Of a stretch of 64,000 nucleotides of DNA, positions 4,985 to 64,000 are shown piece after piece. The position numbers and the translations under genes were made by a program. Numbering within the stretch: the stretch's first letter is position 1; every line of letters begins with the position of its first letter. This DNA is from Amycolatopsis keratiniphila subsp. keratiniphila. Lineage in GTDB: Bacteria; Actinomycetota; Actinomycetes; Mycobacteriales; Pseudonocardiaceae. The notes under the pieces were generated by a model that did not search any database, was not told the DNA's origin, and worked only from the letters and a program-made list of their open reading frames with translations. The stretch covers positions 1 through 64,000 of the forward strand of contig NZ_LQMT02000033.1 in the NCBI RefSeq assembly GCF_001620365.2. Direction: 5' to 3'.

Positions 4985-5217
4985 ACTCAGCGACTTGGGA
5001 ACCCTCGGCCTTCGGGCGCGCTGCGGGTTGTCCACAGGCACCCGCCGTTGTGGACCACTGGCCCCGCCGCCCCCTCATCAGCCCAGTCCCGACGCCCCTC
5101 GGCGATACGCTGGAGCCGGGGTCGCCCCCCTGGGAGTGGCGGGGGCTGTCCGGGGCGCGGTGACTTGGGCATCGTCCTGGTCGGTGGGCTTCTGAAGGAA
5201 GGCGTCATGCCGCAACG
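4985..5217. other. Gap without a supported gene
   Basis: I see no credible coding sequence here. The stretch contains a TTGTCCACA nonamer (5028-5036), which matches the high-G+C DnaA-box form, and a TTGTGGAC about 10 bp later. A single box is not an origin. Confidence 0.6.
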
Positions 5218-5257
5218 CGAAAGGGCCTTGCTCGCGAAGGCGAGCAAGGCCCTTTCG
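5218..5257 (-). terminator. Terminator hairpin after tRNA-Pro
   Basis: Perfect inverted repeat: 18-bp arms 5218-5235 and 5240-5257 with a 4-nt GAAG loop. It lies 8 bp beyond the 3' end of the tRNA read on the - strand. Confidence 0.85.
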
Positions 5258-5265
5258 ATCTTGCG

Positions 5266-5339
5266 TCGGGGTGGCGGGATTCGAACCCACGACCTCCTCG
5301 ACCCGAACGAGGCACGCTACCAAGCTGCGCCACACCCCG
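5266..5339 (-). tRNA. tRNA-Pro, anticodon CGG
   Basis: Read on the - strand, this is a complete 74-nt cloverleaf. The acceptor stem is CGGGGTG/CACCCCG with discriminator A. The anticodon stem CCTCG/CGAGG holds the loop TTCGGGT (anticodon CGG, reading CCG codons). The T-arm has the GTTCGAATC sequence. CCA is not encoded. No integrase or duplicated 3' end was found beside it. Confidence 0.97.
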
Positions 5340-13193: not shown

Positions 13194-15371
13194 TCAGCGG
13201 CCGCCGCCCATGTACTTCGGGTCCGGCTGCGGTAGCGGCAACGCCTCCTGGCCTTCGAGGATCTTCGACATCGCCCCGAACCAGGTCTGCGCCGGCGTCT
13301 TCCCGCCCCACATGTTTTCGCAGCCCCGAGTGGAGACGTTGCCCGGGCCGAGGTAACAGAGGCCGCCACTTCCACCCTTCGGCCGGAACACCATCGCCGC
13401 GCCTGCGAGCTGGGGAGTCGCCCCAAGGTAAGAACCTGCGCCGTTGTTCTGTGTTGTTCCGGTCTTGCCGATCACCGGTCGGTTCCACTTGGCACCGCTC
13501 GCGGCGCCGAACGACGTCCCACCAGGTTGGCTGTCCTTGCTCATACCGACTGCGAGTGTGTTAGCGAGGCCCTCTGGCACCACCTGTTCGCAAGCGGCTT
13601 CCTTGACCGGGACCGGCTTCCCATCCCGGTCGGTGACACTCGCCAGCGGGGTCGGCGGGCACCAGACGCCACCGCTCATGATCGTGGCGCCGACATTCGC
13701 CAGTTCCAGGCCTGACAGTGGGCTCACGCCGAGGGTGAACGCACCGGACCCGGCCCAGCCCGGCTTCGGTCCGTACGCCTGGAGTTGGTTGACGTTTACG
13801 CCGTCGTCTTTGGAGTTCGGGTCGACGGTCCCGCCGCCCCGGTTGCTGGCCATGGTGTCGCGCATGCCGAGCTTGCGAGCCATCTCCACGACCGGACCGG
13901 TGCTCCCAAGCCTGTCCTCGAGATGCACAAACGCGGTGTTCGGCGAAGTCGCCAGCGCCTGCTGCATCGACATGGTCCCGCCCGCCGGGTTGTAGTCACC
14001 CGCGTTGCCGACGCAGTACCAGTTACCACCTGGTCCAGCGGGGGGCCGGGGAGCCGCAGGACACCGCTTCGGGCCACCGGCGAACACATGAGACACGTAG
14101 AGGTCGGGTACTGGGAGTGAGCTGTTGATCCCTGCTACGCCGGCTTCCAGGGCCGCGGCGGCGGTGAAGACCTTGTAGGCGGAACCGGCGCCTGCGGTGT
14201 TGTAGACGCCGGAAGGCAACGCGAACGTCGTCTGCCCCTGGTCTTCGTGCAGCCCGTAGTCGCGGTTCGCCGCCAGCGCGACGACCTCATGCCGCTGTTT
14301 GCCCGGCTTCACCAGGGAAAGCGTGTTCGCGACGTTGTCCTGCGTCTTCTTGACCTGGGCTTCGGCCGACATCTTGGCCTCGTGGTTCGCCCGTTCGTCC
14401 AAAGTGGTCTTGATCTGGTAGCCGCCGGTGTAGAGGTCGTCCTTCGTCATCCCGGACTTGAGGAGATAGTCCTCGACGTACTGGCAGAAGAAACCGTTCT
14501 CCGGGCCGGCGCCGGTGCAGTTCGACGCGGGCTTCTGCGGGCCGCCTTCGACGACGCCGAGCGGCTCGGCCTTGAAGCGTTCGGCGTCCACCTTCGCGAG
14601 CTTCTGGTTGTCGACCATGCGGTCCAGCACCAGGTTGCGGCGTTCGGTCGCCTTCGCGGGGCTCTTCCACGGGTCGTTGACGATCGGGTTGTTCACCAGG
14701 CCGGCCAGCAGCGCCGCCTGCGGCACCGTGAGCTTCTCGACGGACGTGTTGAAGTACGCGTTCGCGGCCGCGCCGACCCCGTAGATCTCGCGCGAGAACT
14801 CGACGACGTTCAGGTAGCCGGTCAGGATCTGCATCTTGTTCAGCTTGGTTTCCAGCTGGATCGCGATCCGGGCTTCCTTCAGCTTCCGGGCGACCGACTG
14901 TTCCTGTGCGCGCTTCTGGCCCGGCTTGTCGTCCCGGTAGACGACGTTGATCAGGTAGTTCTTGACGTACTGCTGGGTCAGCGTCGACGCGCCCTGCGTG
15001 TCCCCGCCGGTGCTGTTGCTGACCGCCGCGCGCAGCGTGCCCTTCCAGTCCACCCCGTTGTGCTCGTAGAAGCGCTTGTCCTCGACCGAGATCAGCGCCC
15101 ACTTCATGGCGTCGTTGATCTGGGTCTCGGTGGTCGGGATGCGGTACTGCTTGTACAGCGTCGCGATCTGCTTGCCGGTGTTGTCCGTGATCGTCGTCAC
15201 CAACGGCGGCGGGATGTCCGCCAAGTCCGAAGATGTCTTGTCGACGGTCTCGCTCGCCTGGTTCGACAGCACCCCCGCGGCACCCGCCACCGGGAACAAC
15301 ATCCCCGCGACCAGCACCCCCGCGAGCACACACAGGCCAATGAGCTTCAGCAGACCGTCCGTTTTGCGCAC
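13194..15371 (-). CDS. ponA2: Bifunctional class A penicillin-binding protein (PonA2-like)
   Basis: Polymerises and crosslinks peptidoglycan outside the membrane. The 725-residue protein has an N-terminal transmembrane anchor (residues ~8-35), a GT51 transglycosylase domain with SVEDKRFYEHNG (glutamate near 97) and STLTQQYVKN, then a transpeptidase domain with SAYK near residue 397, SPN in ATSPNTAF, and KTG in IGKTGTTQNN. Unlike M. tuberculosis PonA2 it ends without a PASTA domain. The start is GTG 15371. It diverges from whiB4, the same arrangement as Rv3682/Rv3681c, which supports the name. Confidence 0.93.
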   Translation of the reverse strand: MRKTDGLLKLIGLCVLAGVLVAGMLFPVAGAAGVLSNQASETVDKTSSDLADIPPPLVTTITDNTGKQIATLYKQYRIPTTETQINDAMKWALISVEDKRFYEHNGVDWKGTLRAAVSNSTGGDTQGASTLTQQYVKNYLINVVYRDDKPGQKRAQEQSVARKLKEARIAIQLETKLNKMQILTGYLNVVEFSREIYGVGAAANAYFNTSVEKLTVPQAALLAGLVNNPIVNDPWKSPAKATERRNLVLDRMVDNQKLAKVDAERFKAEPLGVVEGGPQKPASNCTGAGPENGFFCQYVEDYLLKSGMTKDDLYTGGYQIKTTLDERANHEAKMSAEAQVKKTQDNVANTLSLVKPGKQRHEVVALAANRDYGLHEDQGQTTFALPSGVYNTAGAGSAYKVFTAAAALEAGVAGINSSLPVPDLYVSHVFAGGPKRCPAAPRPPAGPGGNWYCVGNAGDYNPAGGTMSMQQALATSPNTAFVHLEDRLGSTGPVVEMARKLGMRDTMASNRGGGTVDPNSKDDGVNVNQLQAYGPKPGWAGSGAFTLGVSPLSGLELANVGATIMSGGVWCPPTPLASVTDRDGKPVPVKEAACEQVVPEGLANTLAVGMSKDSQPGGTSFGAASGAKWNRPVIGKTGTTQNNGAGSYLGATPQLAGAAMVFRPKGGSGGLCYLGPGNVSTRGCENMWGGKTPAQTWFGAMSKILEGQEALPLPQPDPKYMGGGR

Positions 15372-16049: not shown

Positions 16050-16097
16050 GTGAAAAGGCCCCTTCCCTGAGTCCAAGGTAGGGAAGGGGCCCTTCGC
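16050..16097. terminator. Gene-end palindrome (family C)
   Basis: Core arms GGCCCCTTCCCT (16057-16068) and AGGGAAGGGGCC (16080-16091) pair perfectly, with imperfect extension on each side. It separates the converging whiB4 and ATPase genes. The core is shared with 18534-18588. Confidence 0.75.
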
Positions 16098-26998: not shown

Positions 26999-27673
26999 CT
27001 AGCGCGCGCGGCGGGCCAGACGCTCCGGGTCCAGGATCAGGACGCTCTTGCCTTCGAGCCGCAGCCAGCCGCGGTGCGCGAAGTCGGCGAGAGCCTTGTT
27101 GACGGTCTCGCGCGAGGCGCCGACGTACTGGGCGATCTCTTCCTGCGTCAGGTCGTGGGTGACCCGCAGCAGGCCTGCCTCCTGGCTGCCGAAGCGCTGC
27201 GCGAGCTGCAGCAGCGCCCGCGCCACGCGGCCGGGGACGTCGGTGAAGATCAGCTCGGCGACCATGTTGTTCGTCCGGCGCAGCCTGCGGGCGACCACGC
27301 GGAGCAGCTGCTCGGCGATCTCCGGGCGGGTGGAGATCCACTGCCGCAGCGCCGGGCGGTCCATCGTCACCGCGCGGACCTCGGTCACCGTCGTCGCGCT
27401 GGACGTCCGGGGGCCGGGGTCGAAAATGGACAGCTCTCCGAACATGTCGGACGGGCCGAAGATGCCAAGCAGGTTCTCGCGGCCGTCGGGTGACTTGCGG
27501 CCGATCTTCACCTTGCCGGACTGGATGATGTAAAGCTTGTCGCCGGGTTCACCCTCGTTGAAGATGACATGCCCGCGAGGGAACTCCACGGATTCCAAGG
27601 TCTGTGCCAGCGCCTCGGCGGCTGCCGGCTCAACACCCTGGAAAATGCCCGCTCGGGCCAGGGTTTCGTCCAC
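26999..27673 (-). CDS. crp: CRP/FNR-type cAMP receptor regulator
   Basis: A global transcription factor of 224 residues, very close to M. tuberculosis CRP (Rv3676). The cyclic-nucleotide pocket has [18 protein letters not shown] with R89 and T90 as phosphate contacts. The winged helix contains [21 protein letters not shown] as recognition unit. Start GTG 27673 has GAGGAGG 8-12 nt upstream. A GTGTCGTCGATCAC sequence (27727-27740), GTG-N8-CAC, lies about 55 bp upstream and could be an autoregulatory half-palindrome. Flanking nth, MBL and Rv3675-like genes match the mycobacterial order. Confidence 0.95.
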
Positions 27674-59098: not shown

Positions 59099-60367
59099 TC
59101 AGCGATAGATGAGATGGCGGCGGCGTTTCCGGTCGAACTCGGCCAGTTCGGCCTGCCAGGACCCGACGATCTCGTCCACTCCGGCGCCCTTGTCGATCAT
59201 CGTGCGCAGCCTGTCCGAGCCGGAGAGCTTGTCGAGGAAGTTGTCCGGGCGCCACTTGAACTTGTCCGGATGCACCTGTTTCGCGGTGACGAACATGGTG
59301 ACCGCGGTGCGGATGGCGTCGAACGCCCGCGGATCGGTGATCGTCACCTGCACGCCGCCGCAGGGCTCGTTGACGAACTTGCCGAATGTCGGCACGAAGT
59401 ACGCCTCACGGAACTTCACCCCGGGAAGCCGTAGCTCGCCCAGCTTCTCGCGCCAGCGCCAATCGAGGCCCGGCGCGCCGATGATCTCGAACGGCCTGGT
59501 GGTGCCCCGGCCTTCGGAGAACACGGTGCCCTCGAACATCCCGGTGCCGGGGTAGACGAGCGCGGTGTCCGGCGTCGGCATGTTCGGGCTCGGCGGGACC
59601 CAGGTCAGCCCGGTGCGGGCGAAGAGCTGATCGCGGCGCCAATCGCGCACCTCGACGATTTCGAGCCTGCCCGGCGTGACCCCCTCGGCAGGCAGGAACT
59701 CGGCCGCGAAGAACCGCGCGAGTTCGCCGACGGTCATGCCGTGCTGCTGCACGATCGGCTTCCGGCCGACACCCGAGGCGAACGCCGGGTTCAGCATCGG
59801 CCCGGCGGCCTTGCCACCCAGCGGATTCGGCCGGTCCAGCACGACCACCGCCGCGCCGACCTTCGCCGCCGCGACCATCGCCGTGTACAGCGACCAGATG
59901 TAGGTGTAGAACCGCGCGCCGACGTCGGCGATGTCGAAGACGACGGTGTCGACGCCCGCCTTCGTGAACATGCCGGCGAGCTTCGTCGCGTCGGCGCCGT
60001 ACGCGTCGTACACCGGCACGCCGGTGCGCGGGTCGGTGTAGTCGCCCTCGGAACCGCCTGCCTGCGCGCTGCCGCGGAAACCGTGCTCCGGCCCGAACGC
60101 GGCGAGCGGCCGGACCCCGGCGGCGGCCATCGAGTCGACGATGTGGTCGCCGCTCGCCAGCACACCCGTCGGATTCGACAGCACGCCGAGCTTGCGGCCG
60201 GACAGCGGTGCCCAGCCCTGTGCGGCGAGCACGTCCGCTCCGGTGCGGGTGAGCGGGGGACCTTTGCTACCACTTTCCGGCTGGGCCCCCGCGACCGAGG
60301 ACCCGGCCGTCAGCGCGGGGACCGCGAGCGCGCCGGTGGCGAGGAAGTGGCGGCGGTTGAGGTTCAC
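59099..60367 (-). CDS. namZ: Exo-beta-N-acetylmuramidase NamZ (DUF1343)
   Basis: Releases MurNAc from the non-reducing end of peptidoglycan fragments. The 422-residue protein has a Tat-type signal (NRRHFLATGALAVPALTAG) and the DUF1343 blocks GVLSNPTGVLASGDHIVDSM, FGPEHGFRGSAQAG, VVFDIADVGARFYTYIWSLY and LVYPGTGMFEGTVFSEGRGT. GTG 60367 overlaps the nagZ stop (GTGA). Codons just after the signal peptide (60257-60275) consist of one arm of the family E palindrome, encoding a non-conserved linker. Confidence 0.92.
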   Translation of the reverse strand: MNLNRRHFLATGALAVPALTAGSSVAGAQPESGSKGPPLTRTGADVLAAQGWAPLSGRKLGVLSNPTGVLASGDHIVDSMAAAGVRPLAAFGPEHGFRGSAQAGGSEGDYTDPRTGVPVYDAYGADATKLAGMFTKAGVDTVVFDIADVGARFYTYIWSLYTAMVAAAKVGAAVVVLDRPNPLGGKAAGPMLNPAFASGVGRKPIVQQHGMTVGELARFFAAEFLPAEGVTPGRLEIVEVRDWRRDQLFARTGLTWVPPSPNMPTPDTALVYPGTGMFEGTVFSEGRGTTRPFEIIGAPGLDWRWREKLGELRLPGVKFREAYFVPTFGKFVNEPCGGVQVTITDPRAFDAIRTAVTMFVTAKQVHPDKFKWRPDNFLDKLSGSDRLRTMIDKGAGVDEIVGSWQAELAEFDRKRRRHLIYR

Positions 60368-62169
60368 CAGGTCAGCCCGTGGCCGAAGGGGTACTTCACC
60401 GTGCCCACGTCCTTGCCCGCGGGAACGTCCACCGGCAGCTTGCCCTGCGGCGTCACCTTCCCGAGGATCACCTTCGCCAGCGCTTCGAGCGAAGGCGTGA
60501 TGTAGCCATACGTGGCGAGCCACGTCTTGATCGGGTTCTCGTAGCCGGCGTCGTAGGGGATCTGGGCGGCGACCGCGACGACGGGCTTCCCGGTGTCGGC
60601 CAGCGCCTGCAACAGCTTGCCCTGCAACGGATACGTGCCGACGTTGTTGGTCAGCACGACGACGAGGTCGACGTTCTTCGCCGCCGCGGCCGCCTGCGCG
60701 ATCTGCGCGTCCGTCGGCGTCTGGCCGGTCTGGAGCGCGGTCGCCTGCGTGCCGTGTGCGGTGAGCTTCGCGGCCAGCGACGTCGTCGTGGTCGCGCCCC
60801 AGCCGGTCACGAGGGTCTTCGCGGGCTGCTGCTTGAGCGGCAGGACACCGCCGTCGTTGCGGATCGCGGTGACCGACCGGTCGGCGATGCCCTGCGCGGT
60901 CGCGAGGTTGGCCGGGACACCGACCTTCGACATCACCTTGGCCGGATCGACGAACGGCGAGGTGAGGATGCCGCGGTTCAGCTTGAGCTTCAGCACCCGC
61001 AGGACGCTCTCGTCGATACGCCGTTCGGTCAGCTCGCCCTTGCGGACGGCGTCGAGCACCGCGTTGATCGCGAGTTCGAGGTTCACCGGCATGAGCAGCT
61101 GGTCGATACCCGCCTTGAGGGCCAGCACCGGGATCTCCGCGTCGGTGTGCATCTCGCGCACGGCGTCCATCGAGAGGGAGTCGGTGACGACGACTCCGCG
61201 GTATCCGAGCTCCTCACGCAGCTTGCCGGTGAGGATCGGCTTCGACAGCGTGGCCGGTTCGCCCGACGGGTCGAGGCTGGGGAACTGGATGTGCGCGCTC
61301 ATGATCGAGTCGATGCCCGCCTTGATGGCGGCCTTGAACGGCGGCACGTCGGTCTCGCGCCAGCTGGCCTCGCTCCGGTCGATCCGGGGCAGCTCGTGGT
61401 GACTGTCGGTGGCCGCGTCGCCGTGGCCTGGGAAGTGCTTCGCGGCGGCGGACACCGTCTCCGAGCGCCGTCCGGAGTTCTGGAAGCCCCTGACCTGGGC
61501 TTCGACGAACTGGCTCGCCAGCTCCGGGCGGCCGGAGAAGGAACGGACGCCGATCACCGGGTTCGCCGGGTTCGAGTTCACGTCGGCGTCGGGGGCGAAG
61601 TCCTGGTTGATGCCGACGGCGCGCAGCTCGTGCCCGAGGATCCGGGCGGCGTCCTGCGCGGCCTTGGTGTCGCGGCCGGCCGAGATCGCCATCGCGTTCG
61701 GCAGCTCCGTGGCGGGGGCACCCATCCGGGTGACCGTGCCGCCTTCCTGGTCGGTCGCGATCTGCAACGGGATGCGGGCGCCGCTGCGGAGCGCGGCCCG
61801 CTGGAGCCCGTTGGACAGCTTGGCGACCTGTACCGGGTCGTCGAAGTTGTCGCGGCTGTCGTTGTTGAAATAGATGACGCCGCCCAGGTGGTACTTCTCG
61901 ATGACCTGCGCGGGGGTGTCGACACCGAAGTCGGCCTTGTTCTTGGCGTTGACCTCGTCGGCGGATTTGCCGTTCACCCAGGTGACGAAGAGCTGCCCGA
62001 CCTTCTGCTCCAGGGTCAGCCCGCGCAGCGTCCGCTGCGCCTCCGCGTCGGCCGTCATCGGCTGCGCGGTAGCCGGAACACCCGCGACACCCAAGGCGAG
62101 CAGACCCGCGAGGGGCAGGGCGAGCGCATAAATCCTCCGATGACGGGCGTGCGCGATTCGGGTCGTCAC
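60364..62169 (-). CDS. nagZ: Secreted beta-N-acetylglucosaminidase (GH3, NagZ-like)
   Basis: A 601-residue glycoside hydrolase family 3 enzyme with a Sec signal peptide (ALALPLAGLLALGVAGVPATA). The catalytic His/Asp dyad motif KHFPGHGDAATDSH is near residue 247 and the nucleophile Asp is in VVVTDSLSMDA near 333. A second alpha/beta domain follows, as in the two-domain Bacillus NagZ. It removes GlcNAc from muropeptides before NamZ releases MurNAc. GTG 62169 has GGGAGG ~7-12 nt upstream. It heads the operon nagZ-namZ-serine hydrolase. Confidence 0.93.
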   Translation of the reverse strand: MTTRIAHARHRRIYALALPLAGLLALGVAGVPATAQPMTADAEAQRTLRGLTLEQKVGQLFVTWVNGKSADEVNAKNKADFGVDTPAQVIEKYHLGGVIYFNNDSRDNFDDPVQVAKLSNGLQRAALRSGARIPLQIATDQEGGTVTRMGAPATELPNAMAISAGRDTKAAQDAARILGHELRAVGINQDFAPDADVNSNPANPVIGVRSFSGRPELASQFVEAQVRGFQNSGRRSETVSAAAKHFPGHGDAATDSHHELPRIDRSEASWRETDVPPFKAAIKAGIDSIMSAHIQFPSLDPSGEPATLSKPILTGKLREELGYRGVVVTDSLSMDAVREMHTDAEIPVLALKAGIDQLLMPVNLELAINAVLDAVRKGELTERRIDESVLRVLKLKLNRGILTSPFVDPAKVMSKVGVPANLATAQGIADRSVTAIRNDGGVLPLKQQPAKTLVTGWGATTTTSLAAKLTAHGTQATALQTGQTPTDAQIAQAAAAAKNVDLVVVLTNNVGTYPLQGKLLQALADTGKPVVAVAAQIPYDAGYENPIKTWLATYGYITPSLEALAKVILGKVTPQGKLPVDVPAGKDVGTVKYPFGHGLTW

Positions 62170-62281
62170 CTCAAGCCTCCCAGATTCGTGCCTGACTCTC
62201 AGATGGAAAGAAGTCCACCTGGAAGCACTGATATCCGGAAGCTACCCACGAGCACTTTGCTTGTCCATCGGCCACCCGCAC

Positions 62282-62296
62282 GAACGGTCCGTTCAT
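62282..62296. repeat. Partial family A arm
   Basis: GAACGGTCCGTTCAT matches the family A arm with one mismatch, but no complementary arm follows. It lies upstream of nagZ, an odd place for a terminator piece. Confidence 0.4.
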
Positions 62297-62340
62297 ACAC
62301 AAAGGGACGCGAACGGGCCTGTCACGCTTGAAAACGTGGG

Positions 62341-62592
62341 CAAAACACTGGCGGCGCCCGTCGGCAAGAAGCCGGCGGGCGCCGCCAGTCGGTGCGGACC
62401 ACTCGGGCGACCAAGCGTGCAACTCTGGTCGTACCTTCATGGACTCGGCGTCCGGCGTCCCGGTACGCAGTCCCTAGACGACGAGCCTCCCGCGGCGCGC
62501 TGCGCGTGGGTACCCGGTGTCCGCACACGGAGATTCGCCGGGGTGGAACAGGCTTCTCTTCTACCTGTTCCCTGGCCGACCGAACGTCCGCA
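62341..62592 (-). ncRNA. Ms1/MTS2823-like structured small RNA (candidate)
   Basis: An RNA of about 250 nt read on the - strand, downstream of and parallel to the HAD-IB gene. A TTGAAG-N17-TAGAAA promoter precedes it and a strong T-tailed terminator ends it. Its ends pair perfectly: GGTGCGGAC (62594-62586) with GTCCGCACC (62399-62391), just before the terminator. Internally GGAACAGG/CCTGTTCC forms an 8-bp hairpin. In M. tuberculosis the RNA-polymerase-binding RNA MTS2823 (Ms1 homologue) lies immediately 3' of Rv3661, the homologue of this HAD gene, on the same strand. The family name rests on position and overall shape, not on an alignment. Confidence 0.65.
62347..62389 (-). terminator. Intrinsic terminator of the small RNA
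   Basis: 19-bp arms 62347-62365 and 62371-62389 (one G-T pair), 5-nt loop, followed on the - strand by GTTTTG (62346-62341). It is the only terminator in the window with a clear T-run. Confidence 0.85.
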
Positions 62593-62597
62593 CCTAC

Positions 62598-62626
62598 TTT
62601 CTACGCCGTGAGCCGGGTCACTTCAA
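62598..62626 (-). promoter_or_regulatory. Sigma-A-type promoter of the small RNA
   Basis: Read on the - strand: TTGAAG (62626-62621), exactly 17 nt, TAGAAA (62603-62598). Start of transcription expected near 62591-62594, where the closing stem of the RNA begins. One of the clearest promoters in the window. Confidence 0.65.
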
Positions 62627-62745
62627 GTGCGCAGACGGGTGCACCGGTACAGAGGCTCGATCTAGTGACACGGGCACCCTCCGCGACGGACAATTCGCGC
62701 CCCTGACTGCGAAAACCGGCCCGGTACCGCCGTGTGGGTGTGCGC

Positions 62746-63543
62746 TCAGCGGGTGCGTTTGCGCCGGTTGTAGCCGTACCAGGTGGCACCCGCGGCGAAG
62801 GCGCCGAGCGCGACCAGACCCGCCGACCGCGCGGGGATCCGGGTCCGCAGCGACATCGGGTGCTCGAAGGCGAGGATCTCCCAGCCCTGTTCCGTCGCGT
62901 GCTTGCGCAGGACGCGGTCGGGGTTGACCGCGTGCGGCCGCCCGACGACTTCGAGGAGCGGGATGTCGGTGCTCGAGTCGGTGTACGCGTGGCACTGGGT
63001 GAGGTCGTAGCCGTACGTCGCCGCAAGCTGCTTCGCGGCGACGGCCTTGTTCTCGCCGTAGCAGTAGAAATCGACTTCGCCCGAGTACCGGCCGTCCACG
63101 ATCTGCATCCGCGTGGCCACGCTCCGCGTCGCGCCGAGCATTTCGGCGACCGGCGCGACGACTTCCTCGCCGGTCGCCGACAGCACCACGACGTCGTGCC
63201 CGTCCGCGCGATGGGACGAGATCAGTTCCGCCGCCTCCGCGTAGACGAGCGGGTCGACGACGTCGTGCAGCGTTTCGCGGACGATCGCGGACACCTGCGC
63301 GACGTCCCATCCGGTGCACAGCGCGGAAACCTCGGCTCGCATCCGCTCGGTCTTCGCCGCGTCCGCGCCCGCGAGAGAGAAGACGAGCTGGGCGTACGCA
63401 CTGCGAAGCGCGGCTCGGCGGTTGATCAGACCTTCGCGCAAAAGCGGCTTGCTGAAGGCCAAAGCGCTCGATGACGCGATGATCGTCTTGTCGAGATCGA
63501 AGAACGCCGCGACCTGGCTCGGCGTCGTGCTGGGTCGGTCCAC
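62746..63543 (-). CDS. HAD-IB family phosphatase (Rv3661-like)
   Basis: A 265-residue SerB-like HAD hydrolase (TIGR01490 type). The nucleophile motif is FFDLDKT (D16, D18), motif II VVLSATGEE, and motif III/IV ENKAVAAKQL ... AYTDSSTDIPLLE. A C-terminal hydrophobic stretch (GLVALGAFAAGATWYGYN) with a basic end suggests membrane association. The substrate is a phosphomonoester, unknown. GTG 63543 (VDRPSTTP) is the start. It is flanked by a 6C RNA upstream on the other strand and the Ms1-like RNA downstream, the arrangement seen around Rv3661. Confidence 0.92.
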   Translation of the reverse strand: MDRPSTTPSQVAAFFDLDKTIIASSSALAFSKPLLREGLINRRAALRSAYAQLVFSLAGADAAKTERMRAEVSALCTGWDVAQVSAIVRETLHDVVDPLVYAEAAELISSHRADGHDVVVLSATGEEVVAPVAEMLGATRSVATRMQIVDGRYSGEVDFYCYGENKAVAAKQLAATYGYDLTQCHAYTDSSTDIPLLEVVGRPHAVNPDRVLRKHATEQGWEILAFEHPMSLRTRIPARSAGLVALGAFAAGATWYGYNRRKRTR

Positions 63544-63711
63544 TCGCCAAGGATAGGAGAGTGCGACGGCCGGCCGCCCGTTGGTCGACCACGATCGGGA
63601 TCCGACGGTGGAAAATTCACGACCGCGTATCCGATCGGGCGCGTCGTGCCGTTATCGAATTGTGGGTACCGGCGCCGCCCGCAACGGGCCGGTATCGGAG
63701 TTACAGTGAGA

Positions 63712-63812
63712 ATGTCCGGTGTTGCACCGGGCCCAGGTTCAGTCCGACCCCCCGGGGCTGAACCCCAGGCGGCCCTCGTCCCTCCCCCCTGGCGAGGGCC
63801 GCCTCCTATTTT
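63712..63812 (+). ncRNA. 6C RNA
   Basis: Two adjacent hairpins each present six cytosines in the loop. Hairpin 1: GGTTCAG (63736-63742)/CTGAACC (63758-63764) with C6 at 63748-63753. Hairpin 2: AGGCGGCCCTCG (63767-63778)/CGAGGGCCGCCT (63793-63804) with C6 at 63784-63789, followed by CCTATTTTC as terminator tail. This is the defining structure of the actinobacterial 6C RNA (B11 in M. tuberculosis, located between Rv3660c and Rv3661), which targets G-rich ribosome binding sites. TACAGT (63702-63707) may be the -10, placing the 5' end near 63712-63714. Confidence 0.9.
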
Positions 63813-64000
63813 CCCGTCGTGCCAATGGTTCAGACCTTGTCGGCGGCGGAAACCACGGCAGGACAAGGCCGAACCGTCCGTAGTTCGTTAACTTTCCTTT
63901 CTCTCAAGGGTTTCTTGTGTTCTTTTCGAGTGCGAGGCCCATAGCGGAGGGGACCGACAGAAATCGAGGGAAACCGGTTTCCCGGAGCGGAGTTGTCCAC
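63813..64000. other. Right-edge gap with a perfect palindrome
   Basis: No gene. GGGAAACCGGTTTCCC (63968-63983) is a 16-bp perfect palindrome and a possible operator. The last nine bases GTTGTCCAC could begin another GTCCAYNNTGGAC motif cut by the window edge. By synteny the next gene should be an Rv3660c-like septum-site protein. Confidence 0.5.

Follow-up and report, generated by a model that had tools for sequence, protein, structure and literature searches.

The minus strand at 62339-62593 of the window, which is the whole 64,000-nt stretch of Amycolatopsis keratiniphila subsp. keratiniphila DNA that was analysed, almost certainly carries the Ms1 small RNA gene of Amycolatopsis, judging from its sequence and conserved structure. 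The Ms1 RNAs of relatives associate with core RNA polymerase that lacks the primary sigma factor, and their level rises in stationary phase; by analogy, the RNA described here very probably binds core RNA polymerase as well, and would, as in relatives, hold the core enzyme as growth slows. Ms1 is already known for this genus and is not a new discovery, since Table 4 of PMC9130861, in the part of that 2022 survey available to us, lists Amycolatopsis among 27 genera of Pseudonocardiaceae, the survey as a whole reporting Ms1 in 824 species and 146 genera. What the present analysis adds beyond the known RNA is a conserved palindrome in its promoter, which is a precise and testable candidate for the control of Ms1.

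Identity and gene neighbourhood of the RNA

The RNA gene and its neighbours are located as follows.

62339..62593, minus strand: Ms1 RNA gene, with its 5' end at about 62591-62594 and its 3' end in the T tract
62746..63543, minus strand: HAD-IB phosphatase gene (the Rv3661 position), directly upstream of Ms1 (PF12710 111.7 bits, TIGR01490 196.7 bits)
60364..62169, minus strand: GH3 glycoside hydrolase gene, directly downstream of Ms1 (PF00933 and PF01915)
63733..63807, plus strand: 6C RNA (RF01066, 68.6 bits), one gene from Ms1, beyond the HAD gene

An earlier note, made from the letters of the window, had proposed an Amycolatopsis homologue of Ms1 and suggested a covariance-model search, which bears the proposal out. 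The Ms1/MTS2823 model RF02566 matches 62342-62592 on the minus strand over its full length (model positions 1-304) at 69 bits (E 6.4e-17), and no better match exists elsewhere in the genome, the next one reaching 11.3 bits (E 5.3). The score is below the Rfam curated cut-off of 162 bits, which is an operational threshold and not part of the published definition of Ms1, and a default Rfam scan is therefore silent at this locus. Rfam yields Ms1 candidates only from close relatives of mycobacteria, according to the accessible text of PMC9130861. A second covariance model, R1, was built from a 73-sequence alignment of relatives, with the window's own Ms1 among the training rows, and matches 62339-62593 at 277.9 bits; in the reciprocal test it matched 9 of 9 mycobacterial-type Ms1 loci at 84.8-113.1 bits (the mycobacterial-type family is the one holding the top-scoring RF02566 loci). 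Among the matches listed, nine Amycolatopsis loci scored 222.7-281.1 bits under R1 and Actinokineospora 214.1 bits, while loci beyond these two genera reached at most 130.4 bits. The homology thus rests on the full-length RF02566 match, the reciprocal R1 test and the same placement.

Relative to the HAD-IB gene, the RNA is placed and oriented as known Ms1 is, in agreement with the note: it is intergenic and on the same strand. The stretch described there as gene-free lies at 62170-62745, between the GH3 and HAD-IB genes, both on the minus strand, and mechanically called open reading frames overlap it. The HAD gene stands beside Ms1 at 50 of 50 genus loci and at 25 of 26 other family loci, and the GH3 gene at 49 of 50 genus loci, so that the gene order HAD-IB phosphatase, Ms1, GH3 is kept across the genus (order and strand being taken from coordinates). 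The synteny phrases 'IB HAD' and 'glycoside hydrolase', the latter after Streptomyces, occur in the available part of PMC9130861. Mycobacteria and S. coelicolor have the same arrangement of 6C RNA and Ms1, according to the portion of PMC6582537 at hand. Elsewhere in the window, a tRNA-Pro (CGG) gene lies at 5265-5339 on the minus strand.

Compared with Ms1/MTS2823 (RF02566), the RNA presents the same full-length sequence-structure match, a HAD-IB gene upstream on the same strand, a stand-alone promoter and terminator, the core strands CCCACGCG...GCACGCTTGGT, a 5' hairpin with a GAAGAGAAG loop and a covariation-supported stem enclosing the conserved core. It differs in not reaching the Rfam cut-off, in having GH3 as its downstream neighbour, and in its length of about 250 nt against 304 for the model, an apical-arm stretch of 63 model positions being represented by 10 nt here. 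In being HAD-linked and shorter than the mycobacterial form it resembles scr3559/Ms1 of Streptomyces coelicolor, which associates with core RNA polymerase (PMC9130861, in the text available).

By its sequence, Ms1 is a transcription unit of its own, running from a sigma-A-type promoter at the 5' end to a strong intrinsic terminator. About 150 nt separate the HAD stop from the start of the RNA, which is on the same strand, and either strand of the locus folds well, as might be expected if this were no more than the terminator region or a long 3' UTR of the HAD gene, without an RNA function of its own. That reading is scarcely credible in view of the conserved promoter directly at the RNA 5' end (the promoter composite described below is present in 79 of 140 loci, overlapping and unrelated ones included), the full-length covariation in favour of an Ms1 RNA, and the existence in relatives of Ms1 copies without an adjacent HAD gene.

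6S RNA (ssrS) has, as Ms1 does, an open-promoter-like hairpin and a growth-phase role. This fold in common, together with the argument in the accessible part of PMC6582537 that Ms1 is a 6S variant, is what could speak for a genuine 6S RNA, which would bind the sigma-A holoenzyme and serve as the template for pRNA, a possibility we regard as very improbable. The 6S family is absent from the 14 Rfam matches obtained up to E 10 in 62170-62745, where Ms1 stands at 6e-17, and the window has no 6S match at gathering level; 6S RNA moreover differs from Ms1 in binding holoenzyme and not core. Matches to Rfam families of miRNA type on the terminator hairpin were taken as hairpin artefacts.

Conserved fold and terminator

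The elements of the fold, for which Ms1 remains the reading that we follow, are these.

62528..62593, minus strand: 5' hairpin domain with a largely conserved GAAGAGAAG loop (A1 alignment and covariation)
62519..62526, minus strand: internal strand B of the main stem, GTGCGGAC, covarying with 62392-62399
62392..62399, minus strand: 3' strand C of the main stem, GTCCGCAC, with B as partner or, less supported, 62586-62593
62342..62389, minus strand: intrinsic terminator, a 19-bp hairpin followed by a GTTTT tail (fold and hairpin scan)

As drawn from the aligned relatives, the Ms1 fold has a hairpin domain at the 5' end, then a long stem that closes the conserved core with its apical arm, and finally the terminator. 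The transcript of 254 nt, whose folding the earlier note had suggested as a check, folds at -150.1 kcal/mol (z -6.97). The opposite strand folds well too (z -6.23), and folding energy alone can therefore not pick the strand. Covariation was examined over alignment A1, consisting of 73 distinct sequences (identical rows were left out, as were L085 and L086, which are aberrant or shortened), against an Rfam-type structure written down from the RF02566 model. This gave 438 cells with two-sided changes, against 142.7 for shuffled and at most 98 for slid alignments. The internal 8-bp hairpin GGAACAGG/CCTGTTCC pointed out in the note is present, with two-sided changes in 7 of its 8 pairs.

The octamer GTGCGGAC occurs twice, at the 5' end (62586-62593) and internally (62519-62526), and both copies are complementary to the 3' strand at 62392-62399. 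The 9-bp pairing between the 5' and 3' ends, as first drawn, does occur in the minimum-energy fold, the closing stem being 1.7 kcal/mol better than the internal pairing in the window's own sequence, but it does not stand as a conserved feature, as the 3' strand pairs better internally. The evidence from compensatory changes in the closing stem, whose absence the note had named among the outcomes that would refute its proposal, is mostly unfavourable to that stem: the closing helix has two-sided changes in 3 of 8 pairs (8 cells), versus 6 of 8 pairs (32 cells summed) in the internal 8-bp helix 62519-62526/62392-62399. The internal pairing is also lower in energy in 54 of the 73 relatives and by a mean of 2.9 kcal/mol over all 73, and the 5' strand is in addition held by its own hairpin. 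Because covariation and energies across the 73 sequences favour it, the internal pairing is taken as the conserved fold, and the closing-stem fold was rejected as the main one. Since the closing stem retains standard pairs in 95.2% of cells, it was kept as a possible alternative state, and a two-state fold through the repeated octamer is possible, with covariation not in its favour; that the RNA is closed by its two ends, or switches between two folds, nevertheless appears unlikely to us. The outcome for the closing stem does not count against the RNA itself.

The terminator helix has two-sided changes in 16 of 17 aligned pairs. The description of this terminator as the only T-tailed one in the window was mistaken, for 6 sites emerge when both strands are scanned for stems of at least 8 with at least 4 T. 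One of them, at 16053-16091 on the minus strand, is another good intrinsic terminator, with a 13-bp hairpin GGCCCCTTCCCT...AGGGAAGGGGCC followed by TTTT. In a simpler scan of 60000-64000 (5 T in 8), the Ms1 terminator was absent from the output.

Distribution among genomes and second copies

At E of at most 0.01, RF02566 matched 59 of 60 sampled genomes of the genus, 118 of 150 of the family, 130 of 141 of the mycobacterial-type family and 13 of 148 of the class (the window's genome included), and none of 14 control genomes; at E of at most 10, matches appeared in 4 of the 14 controls. The Rfam cut-off was exceeded in 0 of the 150 family genomes and in 22 of the 141 of the mycobacterial-type family. 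Within the latter family, genus g129 gave an RF02566 match in 0 of 9 genomes (2.2-2.9 Mb), which would fit the published absence of Ms1 in Corynebacterium if g129 is taken to be that genus. R1, at E of at most 0.001, found Ms1 in 16 of 36 sampled class genomes. As a by-product, R1 matched 12 genomes of this sample that lie outside the order and in which RF02566, run with different filters, gave no match. A HAD gene is present at 11 of the 13 R1-matched loci outside the order, one of these HAD matches being weak.

Second RF02566 matches above 40 bits were found in 2 of 150 genomes of the window's family and 6 of 141 of the mycobacterial-type family. These second Ms1-like RNAs, with scores of 44.8-112.2 bits, lie at L032 1501-1748, L034 1501-1761, L129-L133 near 5001-5260 and L135 5001-5253; L138 (29.1 bits) was not counted as a second copy and falls outside in the tree on a very long branch. 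Phylogenetically, 7 of the 8 second copies group together (support 86/80, or 93/87 with two G358 copies), and the HAD-linked RNAs of the window's family stand apart from them (97/99). No HAD gene was found in the flanks examined of the eight copies, whose neighbours differ by locus among the genes scanned (Stealth, bile-acid symporter, thiamine-binding, CorA). Queries with dinG, thioesterase, NAPRT, Hsp20, TetR and others gave no shared neighbourhood, a weak TetR-family match occurring beside second copies in two loci. It is possible, on this sequence grouping, that the second copies form a family of Ms1 paralogues comparable to 6S-1/6S-2; the terms 'paralog' and 'two copies' are absent from the available text of PMC9130861.

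The window's genome has no second Ms1 copy by RF02566 or, one partial match aside, by R1. That match (G000:C16, 23.3 bits, E 0.0056) was taken as chance because it covers only model positions 98-166 of 254. Weak second RF02566 matches in three other genomes, namely G031 (L062, 28.4 bits) and G006 (L061, 27.3 bits) of the genus and G164 (L063, 25.9 bits) of the family, were likewise treated as chance, since retesting gave no Ms1 match at E of at most 0.001. R1 does match L061, at 24 bits (E 2.8e-05), where the match runs over the end of a glutathione-peroxidase frame.

A promoter palindrome and its candidate regulator

Three further features bear on the control of Ms1.

62598..62626, minus strand: promoter, with -35 TTGAAG (62626-62621), a 17-nt spacer and -10 TAGAAA (62603-62598), read from the sequence
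62608..62621, no strand assigned: GTGA-N6-TCAC palindrome, GTGACCCGGCTCAC on the minus strand, between -35 and -10 and centred at about -23.5; predicted CRP/GlxR-type operator
26999..27673, minus strand: CRP/GlxR orthologue, the predicted regulator, which is the genome's best HTH_Crp_2 match

The promoter TTGAAG-N17-TAGAAA is present on the minus strand at 62626-62598, as the note had described, and contains a palindrome that was counted at loci selected by their RNA and not by their promoter. All 50 genus loci carry it in exact form. The other family loci (n = 26) comprise 15 with an exact palindrome, nine with one mismatch and two with two or three, and the mycobacterial-type loci (n = 35) comprise 18 exact, five with one mismatch and 12 with at least two. 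Outside the order, the palindrome was found within one mismatch at 0 of 13 loci, where some RNA 5' ends, and thus promoters, are uncertain; in this the window's promoter differs from those 13 sampled loci, which include no named S. coelicolor sequence. Column counts were made over 55 of the 61 non-genus promoters, six off the fixed spacing being left out (three with an exact palindrome, two with one mismatch, one without). Among the 55, the letters of GTG are kept at 54, 49 and 49 promoters and those of CAC at 51, 50 and 51, and the information content of the N6 columns is 0.56-0.61 bits. The two half-sites tend to be intact together, with both present in 30 promoters, a single one in 7 and 6, and none in 12 (Fisher p 0.0008, relatedness ignored).

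The promoter was also searched for directly, using the composite CTTGNNGTGAN6TCACNNNGTANNAA on a collection with one genome per species, which yielded at least 120 stretches. Among the 80 matches listed, R1 found Ms1 in 74 (61 distinct promoter sequences), starting 5 or 6 nt past the composite in 74 of 74; in 70 of these the distance back to the end of an upstream HAD match is 47-224 nt, and in four no HAD match was found. The listed matches without Ms1 are five records labelled archaea or non-actinobacterial bacteria and a sixth from Gordonia amarae, in which the stretch ends 37 nt past the composite. With a looser composite, the 9.09-Mb genome gives a single occurrence, at Ms1. Other GTGA-N6-TCAC sites in the window, at 15187, 28438 and 29004, lie in or at the end of predicted frames. 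A record labelled as a Bifidobacterium breve MAG contains Ms1 with the palindrome promoter (L226 1090-1382) and is probably a mis-binned contig. At L092, L094, L106 and L107, the first three at least belonging to one genus (g47), the -35 and -10 are both kept and the palindrome has 2-4 mismatches; these loci provide a natural contrast for the role of the palindrome.

The site resembles actinobacterial CRP/GlxR operators in its GTG-N8-CAC half-sites, its overlap with a promoter and the cognate-type CRP encoded in the window, and differs from those operators found in the literature in lying between the -35 and -10 of a gene for an RNA-polymerase-binding sRNA. Residues 1-224 of the 224 of the window's CRP align to the CRP/FNR-family protein of PDB 3h3u (399.8 bits), and a stretch of 20 residues is identical in the two. 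We take PDB 3h3u to be M. tuberculosis CRP and PDB 4cyd, next in the list after it, to be GlxR, and the identical stretch presumably holds the recognition helix. The score of the window's CRP under the NCBIfam CRP equivalog model, 101.7, falls short of the cut-off of 266. Within the window, 35 kb separate the CRP gene from Ms1, and both are on the minus strand.

In the text available, PMC10033298 gives GTG-N8-CAC as the GlxR motif and GTG(N)6GNCAC as the S. coelicolor Crp motif. The window's palindrome fits the GlxR form and not the Streptomyces Crp form, GTGACCCGGCTCAC having C where the latter has G. In Amycolatopsis and many family members, moreover, GTGA is preceded by A and TCAC followed by G or T, which is not the form TGTGA-N6-TCACA; this and the misfit to the Streptomyces motif are what one might expect if another regulator (a GntR-, MarR- or TetR-like dimer) bound the palindrome, or if it were a feature of the promoter DNA and not a CRP site, which seems to us doubtful but well within reason. 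Against such a reading stand the agreement with the published GlxR motif, the exact sites of mycobacterial type, which read TGTGA-N6-TCAC and in five cases form a perfect TGTGA-N6-TCACA, and the 20 residues identical in 3h3u. From these sequence comparisons, we consider it reasonably probable that the palindrome is bound by CRP/GlxR.

The position of an operator generally predicts its effect on transcription. With a CRP dimer at about -23.5, sigma would be denied access and Ms1 repressed, and Ms1 would rise once CRP is released; since a dimer at this position should exclude sigma, repression is the effect we infer, with a chance that falls a little short of even.

Published work supplies context for this proposal, cited here from the portions of each paper that were accessible. 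PMC4191392 describes the sigma factor and regulator controlling Ms1 as not established, puts the stationary-phase rise at about 130-fold and notes binding of LexA at MTS2823. In PMC3207917 a different sRNA, MTS0997, is reported to depend on CRP, and MTS2823 to have no promoter match. M. tuberculosis CRP ChIP-seq (PMC4117774) placed CRP sites upstream of ncRv13843, ncRv11373 and ncRv13660c, neither Rv3661 nor MTS names being mentioned in the accessible main text. In PMC12709188, Ms1 is the gene most affected in stationary phase under CrsL/CarD depletion, and CRP is mentioned, in the part at hand, only as a sigma-A partner. Among the papers listed in a search of mainly freely accessible literature, none was found that describes the Ms1 promoter palindrome or links CRP with Ms1.

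We tentatively propose, as a model that could well prove wrong, that the Ms1 of Mycobacteriales is a direct CRP target, in which a dimer between -35 and -10 shuts the gene, its release in stationary phase leads to the large rise in Ms1, and cAMP thereby sets the reserve of core polymerase, the operator having been gained in the order and lost in some clades. If true, the model would make the amount of available core RNA polymerase depend on cAMP in an order that is large and important to industry.
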